From assembly GCA_013290025.1 (NCBI GenBank), contig JABCYV010000012.1:1-39280 (forward strand): 39,280 nt of DNA. The letters are read 5' to 3'. Of the stretch, positions 4,780 through 12,957 are shown piece after piece (position 1 is the first letter of the stretch; each line of letters begins with the position of its first letter). A program made the position numbers and the translations under genes. The notes beneath the pieces are model-generated. The model was not told the origin of the DNA, did not search any database, and saw only the letters and a list, made by a program, of their open reading frames with translations. Source of the DNA: Acidobacteriota bacterium. Lineage in GTDB: Bacteria > Acidobacteriota > Terriglobia > Terriglobales > Acidobacteriaceae.

Positions 4780-5717
4780 GACCTCACTCCTGCAACCGCC
4801 TCGGACGGCTGTAGCTTCTGCACGAAATAATCCTCCAAGGAGGTCCGCACCGGGATTACTGAAATCAGCCGCAGCCGTTCCCGTCGCAAGGCCTCGATTG
4901 CGCTATCCTGGTTCGCTTCCGAGAGCACGGCACGCACCGTGTCACCAGTCACATGGCACTCTGCGCCTAACGCCCGCAGCGAGGACGGGACCGTCGTCCC
5001 TTGCCAGACGATTTCCACTTTACCGTGAACGCTGGAGGTGAGATCGGCAACCGCTCCCACTCCCCGCAATTCGCCTTTATGAATAATAGCGACGCGATCG
5101 CACAGCGCTTCCGCGTCCGACAGGATGTGTGTAGAAAAGAAAACCGTTTTGCCTTCCTGCTTGAGCTGTTCCATCAGATCCCGGACTTCGCGGCGTCCCA
5201 TGGGATCCAGCCCGGACATGGGTTCGTCAAAGAATACAAGTTTGGGATCGTGCAGTATGGCCTGCGCGATCCCCACCCGCTGCAGCATACCCTTGGAGAA
5301 TTTGCGCAGCTGCACTCCGCCTACCTCCGGCAGTCCTACCCGCTGCAGCACCTCATCAATCTTGTGCGCCCGTTCTTTCGATGCTACCCCGGAGAGTTGT
5401 CCGTAGTAATTGAGTAATTCACGGGCGGTAAGGTAATCGTAAAAATAGGGCTGTTCGGGAAGAAAGCCAATTTGTGCCTTCATCCTTGGATCGTCGACTT
5501 CCATCCCCAGAATGCGCGCTGAACCAGCGGTGGGAAAAACCAGACCCATCAGAAGTTTGAGGGTAGTCGTCTTGCCCGCGCCATTCGGTCCCAGGAAGCC
5601 GAAGATCTCGCCTTCTTCCACCCGCAGGTGGAGAGGTTTCAAGGCGCACTTGGGCTTCTTGCGCCAGAAGCCCACGCTGTAAGTCTTTTCCAGGCCGAGA
5701 ATCTCTATCGCAGTCAT
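4776..5717 (-). CDS. ABC transporter ATP-binding protein
   Basis: The protein has 313 residues. Walker A is GPNGAGKTT (43-51), the signature motif is [15 protein letters not shown] (139-153) and Walker B is LVFFDEP (160-166), followed by a D-loop SGLDP and the switch histidine in FFSTHIL. A C-terminal extension of about 90 residues after the nucleotide-binding core is usual for ATPases that drive ABC-2 permeases (CcmA/NatA/GldA type). The ATG at 5717 is preceded by TGAGG about 9 bases upstream. It is the first gene of a three-gene unit in which each start overlaps the previous stop by 4 bp. Confidence 0.92.
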
Positions 5718-5899: not shown

Positions 5900-6448
5900 T
5901 TACTGCATAACCGTAAACGCGCGGCAGGCGGGCAGGGTGTTGACCGGCACACTTCCTGGAGCGCCTGCGTCGAAGCGGATTACTCCATCTTCGGTCGAAC
6001 AAAAGTCGCGCACGCCGCTCCTGTTGTAGTCGGTTGGAGAAGCGGCGGAAACGAACGAAAGGTTGGTCACGCCGTTAGGGAGCAGCCCAGTTGCGGCGAA
6101 TACGTAGCCGCTCTTACCGCCGGAACCGACGATCGCAGTCGCGAGCACGTTGTCGATGAGGCATGCGGTTACCGGGGAAGGTACGCAGGGAGAAACGCCG
6201 CCCAGATTGCCCAGCGCTATAGCATAACCGCTAGCGGGGAACGCTTCATTGTAAGCAAACTCTGAGGTGTTGATGCTCCGAATTGAATTAGCTGCCGAGG
6301 CCTCGTCGGAGGCAATTCTCGCCCGCAGCAGATTGGGAATGGCGATTGCCGCAATGATCAGAATGATTGCCACCACGATCAAAAGCTCGATCAGAGAAAA
6401 GCCTGAGCTCCACCCTATCGCAGTCGATTTTTTGCTGGTGAAGATCAT
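5900..6448 (-). CDS. Type IV prepilin-like protein (diverged copy)
   Basis: The protein has 182 residues. A longer leader (MIFTSKKSTAIGWSSG) precedes the class-III cleavage site G^FSLIELL; Phe+1 and Glu+5 are present. The hydrophobic helix VVAIILIIAAIAIPNLL follows, then a small C-terminal globular domain with cysteines in pairs and the motif FCSTEDGVIRFDAG. This is the layout of type IV pilins and GspG-like pseudopilins. It is related to the two pilin genes upstream but clearly diverged. AAGG sits just before the ATG. No assembly genes (PilB/C/Q) are in the window, so pilus versus type II secretion role is open. Confidence 0.88.
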   Translation of the reverse strand: MIFTSKKSTAIGWSSGFSLIELLIVVAIILIIAAIAIPNLLRARIASDEASAANSIRSINTSEFAYNEAFPASGYAIALGNLGGVSPCVPSPVTACLIDNVLATAIVGSGGKSGYVFAATGLLPNGVTNLSFVSAASPTDYNRSGVRDFCSTEDGVIRFDAGAPGSVPVNTLPACRAFTVMQ

Positions 6449-6625
6449 AACCTTCAGCTTTCATACTGCATTTTATTGGCCAATCCCACGTCGTTTCAGA
6501 TTGCGCTTGTTTATAGCATCTAGAGCGAATTCAAAGGATTACGGGGGACAGACTGAATTCAGGCCCTTCGCATACAAGCAGTAAGCCAGAATGTGGCAAC
6601 TCTCCGATGACAAAACTCGTCGCTG

Positions 6626-6662
6626 GCAAAAATAGCGGGAGCAACGGCGTTCCGCTGCTCCC
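6626..6662 (-). terminator. Rho-independent terminator after the first identical pilin copy
   Basis: On the minus strand GGGAGCAGCGG-AACG-CCGTTGCTCCC forms an 11-bp stem with one G-T wobble and a 4-base loop (6637-6662). CTATTTTTGCC follows. It lies 40 bp past the pilin stop at 6702, so that pilin is probably its own transcription unit. Confidence 0.75.
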
Positions 6663-6671
6663 TGTGGTTTC

Positions 6672-7272
6672 TACCCTCCCCCAGGTACGTCGCCAAACTT
6701 CCTAGTTCAGCACCGCGTACGGAGCAGCTGCGCAGCTCCCGGTAGCGACATCCACCGCAACCGAGGCTCCGCCGTTGGGATCGGCGTGAATTACACCGTC
6801 CTCGGCCGAGCAGAAACGTCGCACGCCGGTCTGGTTATAGCTGAGAGGCGCCGAGCCAGCCTGGTACAAAACGTTGGCCGCTCCAGCGGCGCCAACCTTG
6901 CCCGTGGCGTTGAAGTTATAACCGCTCTTGCCGTTGCCGACCGGGTTGCCATTATTGGACAGAACACCGTCAATCAAGCAAGCCGCAAGCGGAGTCACAG
7001 CTGCGGGGCACACAAAAACTCCAGCGCCCGGCCCGAGGCTGGACATCGCGGTCGCATAGCCGATGGCGGGATTGCTGGTTTGGTAGGATACTTCGGCGGT
7101 GTTGATAGTACGAATCGAGCTGACCGCAGACGACTCGTTAGCTGCGATACGTGCTCGCAGCAGGTTTGGAATAGCAATCGCGGCGATGATAAGAATAATC
7201 GCCACCACGATCAACAACTCAATCAGTGAAAAGCCCTTTTGTTTACGCATCTCTCGTTTCCCTCTTCTCCAT
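6672..7272. repeat. Direct repeat, copy 1 of a pilin gene duplication (offset 852 bp)
   Basis: This 601-bp block recurs at 7524-8124. Comparing the two line by line I found one difference: g at 7247 against t at 8099, which changes codon 2 (Arg/Ser). The block covers the whole pilin gene, about 30 bp after the stop and about 22 bp before the start. Confidence 0.95.
6702..7250 (-). CDS. Type IV prepilin-like protein, tandem copy 1
   Basis: The protein has 182 residues. The leader MRKQKG is short, cleavage is G^FSLIELL with Glu+5, and the N-terminal helix continues VVAIILIIAAIAIPNLLRARIA. The mature globular part has four cysteines (FVCP, AAC, RRFC, GSC) that could form two disulfides, and the motif FCSAEDGVIHADP. 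Processing would be by a PilD-type prepilin peptidase. It is identical to the next copy except residue 2. It has its own terminator downstream, and a 44-bp palindrome and a short dyad lie upstream. Whether it is the major pilin or a pseudopilin cannot be decided here. Confidence 0.92.
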   Translation of the reverse strand: MRKQKGFSLIELLIVVAIILIIAAIAIPNLLRARIAANESSAVSSIRTINTAEVSYQTSNPAIGYATAMSSLGPGAGVFVCPAAVTPLAACLIDGVLSNNGNPVGNGKSGYNFNATGKVGAAGAANVLYQAGSAPLSYNQTGVRRFCSAEDGVIHADPNGGASVAVDVATGSCAAAPYAVLN

Positions 7273-7392
7273 TGATCAAGCTCGGTCGTAGCAGCCGAAT
7301 TCAGGAATCAGGTTTGCACGTTAGCAACCACAACCCGAGCTCCCAGCGATTTTCGGTCTTGCGTCTCCCATGTTGTATTTTGTCGCGGAGGA

Positions 7393-7409
7393 GTGACGAT
7401 TTGTGTCAG
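7393..7409. promoter_or_regulatory. Candidate operator dyad (TGACG-ATTTG-TGTCA), copy 1
   Basis: TGAC and GTCA half-sites flank ATTTG about 145-160 bp upstream of the pilin start at 7250. A better version of the same dyad is at 8324-8340, upstream of the second pilin copy. The neighbouring TTTGG is shared too. The regulator is unknown. Confidence 0.35.
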
Positions 7410-7438
7410 TTTGGAAAGAGACAGGAGGGCATCCCAAA

Positions 7439-7482
7439 TTATTTGTTTTATTTTTTCCAGCTGGAAAAAATAAAACAAATAA
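7439..7482. repeat. Perfect 44-bp AT-rich palindrome
   Basis: Each arm is 22 bases. The sequence starts TTATTTGTTTTATTTTTTCC, meets at CCAG|CTGG, and the second arm ends AAAACAAATAA. There are no mismatches and no loop. It lies between the two identical pilin genes, immediately after the GNRA hairpin on the minus strand. It could extrude as a cruciform, act as a protein-binding site, or serve as a second terminator hairpin with T-rich flanks on both strands. Confidence 0.9.
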
Positions 7483-7515
7483 GTAAAGAGCATCGGATGT
7501 TGCCATCCGATGCTC
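7461..7515 (-). terminator. Terminator with GCAA tetraloop after pilin copy 2
   Basis: On the minus strand GAGCATCGGATG-GCAA-CATCCGATGCTC forms a perfect 12-bp stem with a GNRA loop (7488-7515). A T-rich tail, TTTACTTATTTGTTTTATTT, follows and is itself the first arm of the 44-bp palindrome. It starts 38 bp past the stop of the pilin at 7554. Confidence 0.8.
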
Positions 7516-7523
7516 CTGGTTTG

Positions 7524-8124
7524 TACCCTCCCCCAGGTACGTCGCCAAACTTCCTAGTTCAGCACCGCGTACGGAGCAGCTGCGCAGCTCCCGGTAGCGA
7601 CATCCACCGCAACCGAGGCTCCGCCGTTGGGATCGGCGTGAATTACACCGTCCTCGGCCGAGCAGAAACGTCGCACGCCGGTCTGGTTATAGCTGAGAGG
7701 CGCCGAGCCAGCCTGGTACAAAACGTTGGCCGCTCCAGCGGCGCCAACCTTGCCCGTGGCGTTGAAGTTATAACCGCTCTTGCCGTTGCCGACCGGGTTG
7801 CCATTATTGGACAGAACACCGTCAATCAAGCAAGCCGCAAGCGGAGTCACAGCTGCGGGGCACACAAAAACTCCAGCGCCCGGCCCGAGGCTGGACATCG
7901 CGGTCGCATAGCCGATGGCGGGATTGCTGGTTTGGTAGGATACTTCGGCGGTGTTGATAGTACGAATCGAGCTGACCGCAGACGACTCGTTAGCTGCGAT
8001 ACGTGCTCGCAGCAGGTTTGGAATAGCAATCGCGGCGATGATAAGAATAATCGCCACCACGATCAACAACTCAATCAGTGAAAAGCCCTTTTGTTTACTC
8101 ATCTCTCGTTTCCCTCTTCTCCAT
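7524..8124. repeat. Direct repeat, copy 2 of the pilin gene duplication
   Basis: This is the partner of 6672-7272, identical over 601 bp apart from one base at 8099. Beyond 8124 the copies diverge after a single-base indel. Confidence 0.95.
7554..8102 (-). CDS. Type IV prepilin-like protein, tandem copy 2
   Basis: The 182-residue product starts MSKQKG^FSLIELL and is otherwise residue-for-residue identical to the copy at 6702-7250, including the four cysteines and the FCSAEDGVIHADP motif. A purine-rich stretch (GAAGAGGG, then GAGAG) precedes the ATG. Its upstream region differs from that of copy 1 but keeps the TTGACA-N5-TGTCAA dyad about 220 bp upstream. Having both copies would raise gene dosage or allow separate regulation of one product (inference). 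Confidence 0.92.
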   Translation of the reverse strand: MSKQKGFSLIELLIVVAIILIIAAIAIPNLLRARIAANESSAVSSIRTINTAEVSYQTSNPAIGYATAMSSLGPGAGVFVCPAAVTPLAACLIDGVLSNNGNPVGNGKSGYNFNATGKVGAAGAANVLYQAGSAPLSYNQTGVRRFCSAEDGVIHADPNGGASVAVDVATGSCAAAPYAVLN

Positions 8125-8323
8125 GATCAGAAATTTTGGTCTCAATAGACCCAATTGCCGAATATGTTCGCATTTTAGCGGCCAGGGTCGTAAGTCACCT
8201 AGGACCATCGCTCCCAGGGTCTAGCTGCTTTGTTTCCAATGATCTCACGATCTTTGGTTACTCAGGTAATTCTGCCCAAATTCATCTTCAAGGGTCAAGC
8301 GTGTCAGATTGTGGCGGGCGGGA

Positions 8324-8340
8324 TTGACAATTTGTGTCAA
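8324..8340. promoter_or_regulatory. Candidate operator dyad TTGACA-ATTTG-TGTCAA, copy 2
   Basis: Perfect 6-bp half-sites are separated by 5 bp. The dyad lies in the divergent region, about 220 bp upstream of the pilin start (8102, minus) and 74 bp upstream of the Rieske oxygenase start (8414, plus), so it could serve either gene. TTGACA alone also resembles a -35 box, but no matching -10 is evident. Confidence 0.4.
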
Positions 8341-8413
8341 TTTGGGACTGGCTCAAATCATAGCCACAACAGAGATCGGCTTACCACTTGTCTTACAATT
8401 GCCGTCTCTCTCC

Positions 8414-9508
8414 ATGAACATCCCCGTCGACGACCTGCGCATCGAGTCTGACATTTCCCGAGCCTGGTCTCTCCCGTCACGCTTTTATACTGACCCGAGT
8501 GTCTTTGCGGCTGAGAAGGAACTTATCCTTGCTCGCACCTGGCAAGTGGTAGGTCACCGCCATCAACTCACAAACCCTGGTGACTTCTTTACTACGGATC
8601 TTCAAGGTGAGCCGTTGCTGTTAGTGCGCGGTGCAAGTAGTGAGCTGCGCGGCTTCTACAACGTCTGCCGACATCGCGCCGGCCCACCCGCTGAGGGCTG
8701 CGGCTCGCGCAAACTGTTTCGCTGCGGATACCACGGGTGGACTTACGGGCTCGATGGAAAGTTGATCAGTGCCACCGAAGTCGACGGCGTGCAGGATTTC
8801 CGTCCCGAAGACTTCGCGCTCAAGCCCGTACGCGCCGAGGAATGGTTCAACCTGATTTTCGTAAACCTCGATCCCAACGCTGGGCCCCTGCTGAAGAGCC
8901 TGGGCGAGCTTCCAAAGCAGGCGCAACGTTTCGGATTCCGGCACATGAAGCTCTTCGAGCGCCGGACATATGAGATGAAGTGCAACTGGAAAACCTACGT
9001 GGATAACTATCTGGAGGGCTACCATCTGCCCAGCGTGCATCCCGGGCTGAATCGCGAAGTGGACTACAACGCGTATACGGTCGAGCCCTACTCCGGTCAC
9101 GTGCGTCAGTTCAGCCCGATTCGCGGAGCCCAACCCGGCGACAGCACACCCCGCCGCTATCAGGAAGCTCGCGACGATTTGACCACGGACTATTTTTGGA
9201 TCTTTCCCAACTGGATGCTGAACTGCTATCCCGACAACGTATCTCTGAATATCGTTCTGCCGCTAGAGACTGAGCGCTCACTGGCCATCTTCGAGTGGTA
9301 TCTCCCGGAGAAAGATCTGGACAGTCAGGCGGCGCAGGACGCGGTCAAATTCAGCGATCAGATTCAGATCGAAGATGTCGCTATCTGCGAAAGGGTGCAG
9401 AAAAACCTGCACTCCCGGAGCTACGCGCGTGGACGTTACAGCGTGAAGCAAGAGAAAGGCGTGCACGCCTTTCACAGGATGTATGCAAGAGCGATGCAGG
9501 ATGCGTGA
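8414..9508 (+). CDS. Rieske non-heme iron oxygenase, catalytic (alpha-type) subunit
   Basis: The chosen start is the ATG at 8414 (MNIPVDDL); upstream in-frame starts would add an unlikely 35-residue tail. The product has 364 residues. The Rieske [2Fe-2S] motif is CRH (Cys85, His87) and CGYH (Cys104, His107). The mononuclear iron site follows as NWKTYVDNYLEGYHLPSVH with His204 and His209 and Asp197 as the likely bridge to the Rieske centre. IQIEDVAICERVQ near the C-terminus is also typical. Family members hydroxylate or demethylate aromatics, choline, carnitine or betaine. No ferredoxin or reductase partner lies next to it, so the substrate is open; the overall look is closest to the choline/glycine-betaine monooxygenase group. 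No clear Shine-Dalgarno is seen. Confidence 0.87.
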   Translation: MNIPVDDLRIESDISRAWSLPSRFYTDPSVFAAEKELILARTWQVVGHRHQLTNPGDFFTTDLQGEPLLLVRGASSELRGFYNVCRHRAGPPAEGCGSRKLFRCGYHGWTYGLDGKLISATEVDGVQDFRPEDFALKPVRAEEWFNLIFVNLDPNAGPLLKSLGELPKQAQRFGFRHMKLFERRTYEMKCNWKTYVDNYLEGYHLPSVHPGLNREVDYNAYTVEPYSGHVRQFSPIRGAQPGDSTPRRYQEARDDLTTDYFWIFPNWMLNCYPDNVSLNIVLPLETERSLAIFEWYLPEKDLDSQAAQDAVKFSDQIQIEDVAICERVQKNLHSRSYARGRYSVKQEKGVHAFHRMYARAMQDA

Positions 9509-10817: not shown

Positions 10818-10983
10818 CCGGAACGACTCTGGGTGTTTAACCCAGTCGCAAACGAGACCTTGGATCCTCTAATCCCCCTCCTCGGGTCTTCCCCACAAGC
10901 AGGGAACGGACAGATCGTTCCTGAAACTCGCTATTGATCTTTGACACGCGGGTGCGTTCGTGTCGGCCCGCCACGGGGTGTGT

Positions 10984-12957
10984 ATGCTTCGCTCTCAACA
11001 ATCGCGGCTTCTGCCACGCACGATTTCCGCCCTCCGTATCGCGTTGCTAATGGGGATGTGTTTGTTCGCCTTAGCGAACACAGCCTGGCCACAACAGGAG
11101 CACTCAGTACCTCAGGCCCTGCCGGCACGACCGATTCACATCGTGCGCATGACCGTGAATCCAGAAGCGCTGAAACCTAACGCACCCATTCCTCTTGCTC
11201 CGGCGGCACACCTGGATTATTACGGCGGACCCGTCGTCTCCAATCTTCAGGTGGTCGTAGTTTTCTGGGGATCCGGCGTAAGTTCGGTGGTTACTGCTGG
11301 CATCGGCGGCTTCTTTCAGGGGATAACCGACAGCACCTACTTCGATCTGCTGAGCGAATACACCACGAATGTCACTCCGATTGGCGGAGGTGCCGGCACG
11401 AACCAGTCAATCGGGCGAGGAAGTTATGGCGGCGAATTTACCATCTCACCGTCGGTTTGTAATGTCACTCCTTGTGTTGTTACTGATGCCCAGGTTCAGG
11501 CGGAAGTGCTGAGCCAGATCAATGCCGCACACCTTCCCACACCGGCGCTCGACAGTAATGGCAAAGTAAATAGTCTGTACATGATTTACTTCCCGCCCGA
11601 CGTAACTATCGACCTAGGCTCGTCTGTCAGCTGCGTGCAGTTCTGCGCCTACCACGGAACTACCAGCAACACCTTCAACTCCAAAAATCTAGCGTACGGG
11701 GTGATGCCCGATTTCGGGGCGCCCTCGGGGTGCAGCGTTGGTTGCGGCGGAGGGACTGAGTTTCAAAACATAACATCGGTTTCGTCACACGAGATGGCCG
11801 AAACAGTCACCGATATCGACGTCGGGATAGCAACGGTCTTTGGTCCGCCCCTGGCATGGTATGATGCAAATTCGAATGACCAGGATGGGGGCGGAGAAAT
11901 TGGAGATATTTGTAACGCCCAGCAATCGGCGGTGACGACTCCGAACGGCACCTACACAGTTCAGCAAATCTGGTCTAACCAATCAGGCGCTTGCGTCAGT
12001 ATTGGCTCGCATCCGACTTTTCAGTTGACTGCCCCGAACTCAGCCACGTCTGGAACGTCTTTCAATTTCACGGTCACAGCAGAGAATCCTGTCGGCAGCA
12101 GCACCGATATCAGTTTTGCCGGCACAGTTCACTTCACCAGCAGTGATCCACAAGCCATCCTTCCCGCCGATTTCACCTTTACGCCTAGCGATCAGGGAAC
12201 CCAAGGTTTTGGTGCGACGCTGAAGACCACAGGCGCACAAACGATTATCGCGACCGACACCGTGAACAACGGAGTCAAGGGTACGGCCACAGTGAACGTT
12301 GGCAATGGGATACTAGGCGCTCTTACTTTCACGCCCACAGCGCTAACTTTCGGCAGCTATGCCACGGGCACTACGAGTGCCGCCAAGAAAGTTACCTTGA
12401 CCAATCTTGCGGGTGGAACGGTCACTATCTCTTCTATCGCGATTACAGGAACCAATCCGGGGGATTTCTCTAAGACCACTACCTGTGGCGGTACGCTGTT
12501 GGTGAACAAATCGTGTACCGTGAGTGTAACTTTCTCTCCCGGAGCACTGGGGGCCAGATCCGCCACCTTGGTAATTACAGACGACGCGAGCAATAGCCCG
12601 CAGCAAGTTCCGCTTTCGGGGAAAGGAGTGCCGCAACTAACGCTCACCCCATCAAGCCTGACCTTCATAGGTACGACTGTGAGCCAAACGAGTGCGGCCA
12701 AGATAATTAAAGTGAAGAATAATCTAAAAACGATGCTGAACTTCTCCGGAACCCCGTTTACGTTCACGGGAGCAGACCCGGGTGATTTTAGCGAGTCGGC
12801 GACCACCTGCGGAGGCACTCTGGCAGCAGGTCAGACCTGTACGGTCAGCATTACATTCACTCCCACTGCTAAAGGAACTCGCACTGCAGCGCTGAACGTG
12901 TCCGATAGTGCCAGCCCGAGTCCGCAGACAGCAAAGTTGTCGGGGACCGGCAAGTAA
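10984..12957 (+). CDS. Secreted EXORDIUM/zincin-like protein with Ig-like and choice-of-anchor-D domains
   Basis: The start is probably the ATG at 10984; a GTG at 10960 would add 8 residues. It encodes about 657 residues with a signal peptide ending near AWPQQ. Residues about 75-340 form a domain that begins YYGGPVVSNLQVVVVFWGS and carries SSHEMAETVTDID (His269, Glu270), AWYD and GEIGDICN. This pattern resembles phosphate-induced/EXORDIUM-type proteins, which carry a zincin-like HExxE...GEIGD core; protease activity is not shown. Residues about 345-445 are an Ig-like domain. Two ASH/choice-of-anchor-D domains of about 105 residues follow (each with LTFTPTALTF/LTLTPSSLTF, GDFS, CGGTL and CTVSxTFxP). 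It is probably extracellular or surface-attached. Confidence 0.75.
   Translation: MLRSQQSRLLPRTISALRIALLMGMCLFALANTAWPQQEHSVPQALPARPIHIVRMTVNPEALKPNAPIPLAPAAHLDYYGGPVVSNLQVVVVFWGSGVSSVVTAGIGGFFQGITDSTYFDLLSEYTTNVTPIGGGAGTNQSIGRGSYGGEFTISPSVCNVTPCVVTDAQVQAEVLSQINAAHLPTPALDSNGKVNSLYMIYFPPDVTIDLGSSVSCVQFCAYHGTTSNTFNSKNLAYGVMPDFGAPSGCSVGCGGGTEFQNITSVSSHEMAETVTDIDVGIATVFGPPLAWYDANSNDQDGGGEIGDICNAQQSAVTTPNGTYTVQQIWSNQSGACVSIGSHPTFQLTAPNSATSGTSFNFTVTAENPVGSSTDISFAGTVHFTSSDPQAILPADFTFTPSDQGTQGFGATLKTTGAQTIIATDTVNNGVKGTATVNVGNGILGALTFTPTALTFGSYATGTTSAAKKVTLTNLAGGTVTISSIAITGTNPGDFSKTTTCGGTLLVNKSCTVSVTFSPGALGARSATLVITDDASNSPQQVPLSGKGVPQLTLTPSSLTFIGTTVSQTSAAKIIKVKNNLKTMLNFSGTPFTFTGADPGDFSESATTCGGTLAAGQTCTVSITFTPTAKGTRTAALNVSDSASPSPQTAKLSGTGK

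Follow-up and report, generated by a model that had tools for sequence, protein, structure and literature searches.

The stretch of DNA analysed here (the window) is 39,280 nucleotides long and comes from the draft genome of an acidobacterium of the family Acidobacteriaceae (327 contigs, 4.9 Mb, 82% complete). It carries two tandem genes for type IV pilin-like proteins, pilin A and pilin B, and a third pilin-like gene. As shown in Table 1, a perfect palindrome lies in the spacer of the tandem pair, between the terminator of pilin A and the upstream dyad of pilin B.

Table 1. Features in and around the tandem pilin genes (positions are those of the window)
Feature	Positions	Strand	Description
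Third pilin-like gene	5900-6448		
Terminator-like hairpin, pilin B	6637-6662	-	From the consensus scan
3'-UTR element, pilin B	6661-6700	-	54.6 bits; among the 21 model-building sites
Homogenised tract, copy B	6665-7272	-	Two differences in 608 bp from 7517-8124
Pilin B	6702-7250	-	One amino acid unlike pilin A
Sigma54-like -24/-12 site, pilin B	7314-7331	-	GTGGTTGCTAACGTGCAA
Upstream dyad, pilin B	7394-7408	-	TGACACAAATCGTCA; 30 bp from the palindrome
Perfect palindrome	7439-7482	.	Two 22-bp arms (7439-7460 and 7461-7482), loop 0, total 44 bp
A-rich arm	7439-7460	-	Taken as the derived inverted copy
U-rich tail of pilin A terminator	7461-7487	-	TTTAC and one palindrome arm; read as ancestral
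Terminator-like hairpin, pilin A	7488-7515	-	12-bp perfect stem, GCAA tetraloop; z -8.2 with tail
3'-UTR element, pilin A	7513-7552	-	Model R1, 61.4 bits; among the 21 model-building sites
Homogenised tract, copy A	7517-8124	-	
Pilin A	7554-8102	-	Type IV pilin-like, N_methyl PF07963
Sigma54-like -24/-12 site, pilin A	8168-8185	-	CTGGCCGCTAAAATGCGA
Upstream dyad, pilin A	8325-8339	-	TGACACAAATTGTCA

The first-pass annotation described the two pilin genes as identical. They are nearly so: the two differences in the homogenised tract leave a single amino-acid difference: residue 2 is S in pilin A and R in pilin B. Outside the tract the copies diverge strongly, and the 150 bp upstream of the two genes share only 61% alignment identity, gaps counted. 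Homogenised pilins with diverged upstream regions are also seen at loci L124, L111, L120, and L170, while at L100 and L153 the similarity extends upstream as well (84-87%). Homogenised tandem pilins of this kind could come from concerted evolution or from recent duplication.

Since each pilin gene has a sigma54-like -24/-12 site and an upstream dyad, pilin A and pilin B are probably separate transcription units. The dyad common to both is TGAC-N7-GTCA. Both signals recur in relatives. Among the 157 distinct pilins in relatives' loci, each counted once, the -24/-12 pattern is found within 260 nt upstream of 127 (5.6% in a letter-shuffled control), and the dyad accompanies 81 (0.3% in the control).

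Downstream of each pilin gene, immediately before the terminator hairpin, is a conserved 40-nt element with the consensus UUGGCGAAGUACCUGGGGGAGGGUACAAGCCGG and a GGGGGA loop. The covariance model R1, built from 21 sites including the two in the window, was run on 300 family genomes; 93 of them match at E <=0.01 (the window's own included), in 42 of 79 genera, and one other genome of the same genus gives no R1 match. At E <=0.001 the model matches 53 of 249 genomes in an order sample, 10 of 290 in a class sample, and 5 of 347 in a phylum sample. All of these order, class, and phylum matches fall in the window's family, which indicates but does not prove that the element is restricted to it, as the listings give no count of sampled genomes from other families.

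The exact 18-base core of the element occurs in 70 GTDB stretches, of which 67 have acidobacterial titles, and it is from these titles that the phylum is taken. The three other titles belong to L136, L148, and L160. At L136 the element follows a pilin and the genome is probably misbinned; at L148 the core lies in a coding sequence, presumably of an RNase H-like protein, and looks like a chance match; L160 matches positions 13-31 of the R1 model only. Together with one IMG/VR contig, the GTDB stretches make up 71 loci with 78 core sites. A recognised pilin stop precedes 53 of the 78, at a distance of 10-26 nt in 50 cases and of 48-109 nt in three. Another 14 are close to where the fetched stretch ends, 11 have no recognised pilin, and a terminator-like hairpin follows the core at 67 of the 78. 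Similarly, 25 of the 35 element sites in loci L089 to L118 come after a recognised pilin stop and five are near contig edges. Five have no recognised pilin frame, including two after a pilin-like C-terminus (L093, L114), an uncertain case (L096), and two where no pilin is seen (L102, L110).

It is plausible that this element acts as RNA. In its two-helix fold, 91.8% of the cells pair, against 31.6-51.8% when the fold is slid. Because the sequence hardly varies, however, shuffles reach equal pairing in 437 of 500 cases and an equally high covariation score in 386 of 500, and within the window the element folds with ordinary energy (z -1.22). As neither pairing nor covariation rises above the shuffles, the RNA nature of the element is plausible rather than proven. 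One of the two tract differences, C/G at position 6671, changes GTAC to GTAG in copy B and so costs its element the outermost pair of P2. No Rfam match covers the element, and among the publications found on pilin 3'-UTRs or on RNA motifs in Acidobacteria, judged by their titles, none concerns it. CsrA was considered as a reader of the GGGGGA loop and is unsupported, with no PF02599 match in the 82%-complete genome.

Next to the pilin A element is the hairpin with the GNRA-type loop, which the first-pass annotation had correctly recognised. It has what is expected of an intrinsic terminator: a stem containing G+C, followed directly by a U-rich tract. It is therefore likely that this hairpin, separate from the palindrome, is the terminator of pilin A. 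The annotation had equated the U-tract with the arm of the palindrome; the arm is indeed part of it, but on the minus strand the tract begins with five nucleotides, TTTAC, before the arm. Taken alone, the consensus scan says little for a terminator. Between positions 6000 and 9000 it finds four terminator-like sites, not above the 3.2 found in shuffles (sd 1.8), and it scores the pilin A hairpin as terminator-like on the plus strand also, with the weaker tail CTGGTTTGTA. Conservation is stronger evidence. Of 200 family genomes, G105 matches best, at 79% over 725 aligned columns. Its surroundings are syntenic, with a single pilin at the corresponding place, and it keeps the hairpin with a compensatory change (T-A to C-G) and a short T-tract. 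In other genera, identity to the hairpin covers 32 bp in G084 and 31 bp in G027.

The tail of this terminator was compared with those at other element sites; 76 of 101 sites have a hairpin, and the 25 without one by a strict rule were excluded. With 18 T in 27 nucleotides, the pilin A tail is joint highest among the 76 and continuous with the rest of the distribution. The 45 nucleotides past the hairpin contain 36 A+T, the top value of the 76 (next 33, median 24). A palindrome arm of 22 stands against arms of at most 7 at the other 75 sites. Because the T content is continuous and the arm length is not, the arm in the tail is taken as ordinary and the A-rich one as added.

The palindrome itself is as first described, without mismatch or loop, its arms 100% complementary at a spacing of 0 nt. 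Its symmetry is far beyond chance. In 5,000 first-order Markov resamplings of the 245-bp spacer (7272-7516) the longest arm is 9 bp, and in 20,000 resamplings of the AT block alone (7431-7490) it is 12 bp. The next longest zero-loop arm in the source genome is 13 bp (839,280 bases, the window and 40 stretches of 20 kb), while the longest in eight family relatives is 20 bp (800,000 bases). As an arm of at least 20 bp thus occurs once in each sample of about 0.8 Mb, the first of which contains the window by design, palindromes this large are rare but not unheard of, on the order of one per megabase in these two samples. An inverted-repeat map of E. coli, in the part of the study drawn on here, describes that genome as poor in repeats with arms of at least 13, and repeats with arms of at least 8 just past stop codons as mostly parts of terminators (PMC6060812).

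The palindrome is also a single-locus feature. The first-pass annotation had raised the prospect of a generic repeat with many unrelated copies; no second locus with up to three mismatches is found in the 4.9 Mb of the source genome, and no exact arm in contig scans of GTDB r220 or IMG/VR, from which the window's own records were possibly excluded. A dispersed repeat (REP, MITE, or IS end) was accordingly rejected, as was, within the GTDB and IMG/VR scans, a viral origin. Within the family, five of 300 genomes give a match, namely the source genome and four others with a single 3-mismatch arm each, and none of the other family genomes among the 300 has the full palindrome. G105 has neither the palindrome nor any counterpart of the A-rich arm, and one other genome of the same genus has no match to the spacer. 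In L035, a 20-kb stretch of the source genome, three near-identical hairpins CCCACTCAAGCC...GGCTTGAGTGGG are found at 4917-4947, 10901-10931, and 11418-11448, possibly a REP-like repeat, and a sequence resembling them occurs near 4900-4940 of L211, a locus of relative G047.

The first-pass annotation had taken the retention of the palindrome as a sign of use, with recent origin as another possibility. The second possibility stands, with the palindrome absent from G105, from the other family genomes among 300, and from the 75 other element sites. The inference of use is not supported, because absence from the examined relatives agrees equally with a young event and with selection. Likewise, the lack of mismatches in 22 pairs would be consistent with youth and equally with selection for pairing.

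These observations suggest that the palindrome probably is a one-off inverted copy of the U-tract of the pilin A terminator, made by a local template switch and without function. That it is functionless is itself clearly likelier than not. The A-rich arm matches its neighbour exactly in inverted form, and the ancestral T-tract is surmised from the 75 other tails and from G105. On the minus strand, pilin A would end in an apparently normal intrinsic terminator, the hairpin leading into a long U-rich tail. During replication, a strand would have folded back at the short self-complementary CCAGCTGG, with AGCT as loop and CC/GG as stem. It would have used the T-tract next to it as template before resuming on the original one, leaving a perfect palindrome of 22+22 in one step. 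Template switching has been proposed to create perfect stems in a single event, and the same work also relates that its largest pattern resembling a template switch, of up to 59 bp, did not pass quality control (PMC8794818). Since no close relative keeps this particular T-tract in unduplicated form (G105 is only 79% identical), we infer the step and its direction rather than reconstruct them. Transcription would be ended by the pilin A hairpin, each pilin being served by a separate promoter. To a read-through transcript the palindrome would add no more than a second hairpin, AU-rich and of 19 to 20 bp, past the terminator.

It could be argued that this second hairpin is a functional RNA, which in pilin A read-through transcripts stacks behind the terminator and either protects the 3' end or is cleaved by a double-strand RNase. 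The folding energies are in its favour: the palindrome alone folds as RNA at -20.2 kcal/mol, and jointly with the terminator hairpin in the minus transcript at -68.2 kcal/mol (z -10.4). It is nevertheless unlikely, given the same absences from relatives and element sites and the fact that pilin B has no palindrome despite a nearly identical gene body. The palindrome is a single copy, so compensatory changes cannot be seen in it. Rfam gives five matches overlapping the palindrome with E values of 0.47 to 4, every one far below its gathering score; these miRNA and sRNA matches were rejected as reflecting the hairpin shape.

Another proposal is that the palindrome is the scar of a mobile element, with two terminal inverted repeats abutted, or the junction of the tandem duplication. 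It lies where a duplication junction is expected, past the copy A terminator and ahead of the region upstream of copy B. In addition, L211 contains a perfect palindrome with 20-bp arms at 5197-5236 that adjoins a transposase-like reading frame, perhaps of the IS30 family. On the other hand, the arm has no exact match in the GTDB and IMG/VR contigs beyond records possibly excluded, no clear target-site duplication is seen by eye, and the upstream regions of A and B are so diverged that the duplication appears older than the palindrome. This origin is quite unlikely.

The annotation had also suggested that the palindrome promotes recombination between the pilin copies. Relatives speak against this. 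At locus L124 the tandem pair is identical, and no zero-loop arm in the spacer exceeds 4. Among 64 pairs examined, the window's included, six pairs in relatives are at least 95% identical over aligned columns, with spacer arms of 2 to 5, and the same range is found for the eight high-identity pairs besides that of L124 when the threshold is 93.6%. Relatives thus show comparable homogenisation of tandem pilins with no palindrome of this kind, and the process does not require one.

An assembly or library artefact, that is, a fold-back chimera, is very unlikely. While the assembly is a draft in many contigs and a near-identical 608-bp repeat is nearby, a fold-back read would run into a mirrored hairpin, and the sequence instead enters the upstream region of pilin B with its conserved dyad. 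The usual reads are also longer than the 44-bp palindrome.

Least likely of all is that the palindrome acts on pilin B by binding a protein, extruding a cruciform, or serving as a promoter, for although it is just upstream of the regulatory dyad of that gene, may form a DNA hairpin (-16.6 kcal/mol), and contains a sigma70-like match pointing to pilin B (7467-7438 on the minus strand, 9/12; one of five such sites found by the consensus scan in 6000-9000, 1.1 being expected), the sigma54-like sites of both pilins are nearer the start codon, no full palindrome occurs in the other family genomes among the 300, and binding sites of dimers are usually shorter than 44 bp. The dimeric regulator named in the first-pass annotation does not fit for the further reason that the source genome has no other copy of the 20-bp core, even allowing three mismatches, so that the regulatory region of pilin A lacks it, and the dyad that the pilins share is a different one.

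The palindrome may be a minor decoration on a module widespread in the family. Such a module would consist of a sigma54 promoter with the TGAC-N7-GTCA dyad, the pilin, and an uncatalogued 40-nt cis-acting RNA element that is locked to the intrinsic terminator and governs how stable the pilin mRNA is, how it is translated, or where it is located. This wider reading is tentative, and we place it slightly short of an even chance. The 3'-UTR element matters more than the palindrome, as it would make post-transcriptional pilin control in these bacteria testable. The palindrome is a compact natural case of a terminator tail that has become a perfect hairpin, and it cautions against assuming function for every perfect palindrome.

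Bidirectional terminators are organised as an A-tract, a hairpin, and a T-tract. The first-pass annotation had suggested that the palindrome may be one of them, and there is some likeness, in that an inverted repeat lies between two genes and the pilin A hairpin scores on both strands. However, both strands of the palindrome read the U-rich arm first and then end in the A-rich 3' arm CTGGAAAAAATAAAACAAATAA, the reverse of the order needed, and the neighbouring genes are tandem rather than convergent. The pilin A hairpin, with its GNRA loop and U-rich minus-strand tail, resembles an intrinsic (Rho-independent) terminator; the palindrome differs in having no U-tract past its stem on either strand, and therefore it is not an intrinsic terminator itself. 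The closest comparison is with hairpin mutations of the quasipalindrome type, made by template switching. Here the ancestral state is deduced from other tails, and the product would be a zero-loop palindrome on the U-tract of a terminator. Shared with those mutations, as far as they are described in the parts of PMC8794818 and PMC7202029 used here, is the perfect inverted copy of a neighbouring sequence made in one step, which at this locus is the proposed origin and would start at a short self-complementary core.
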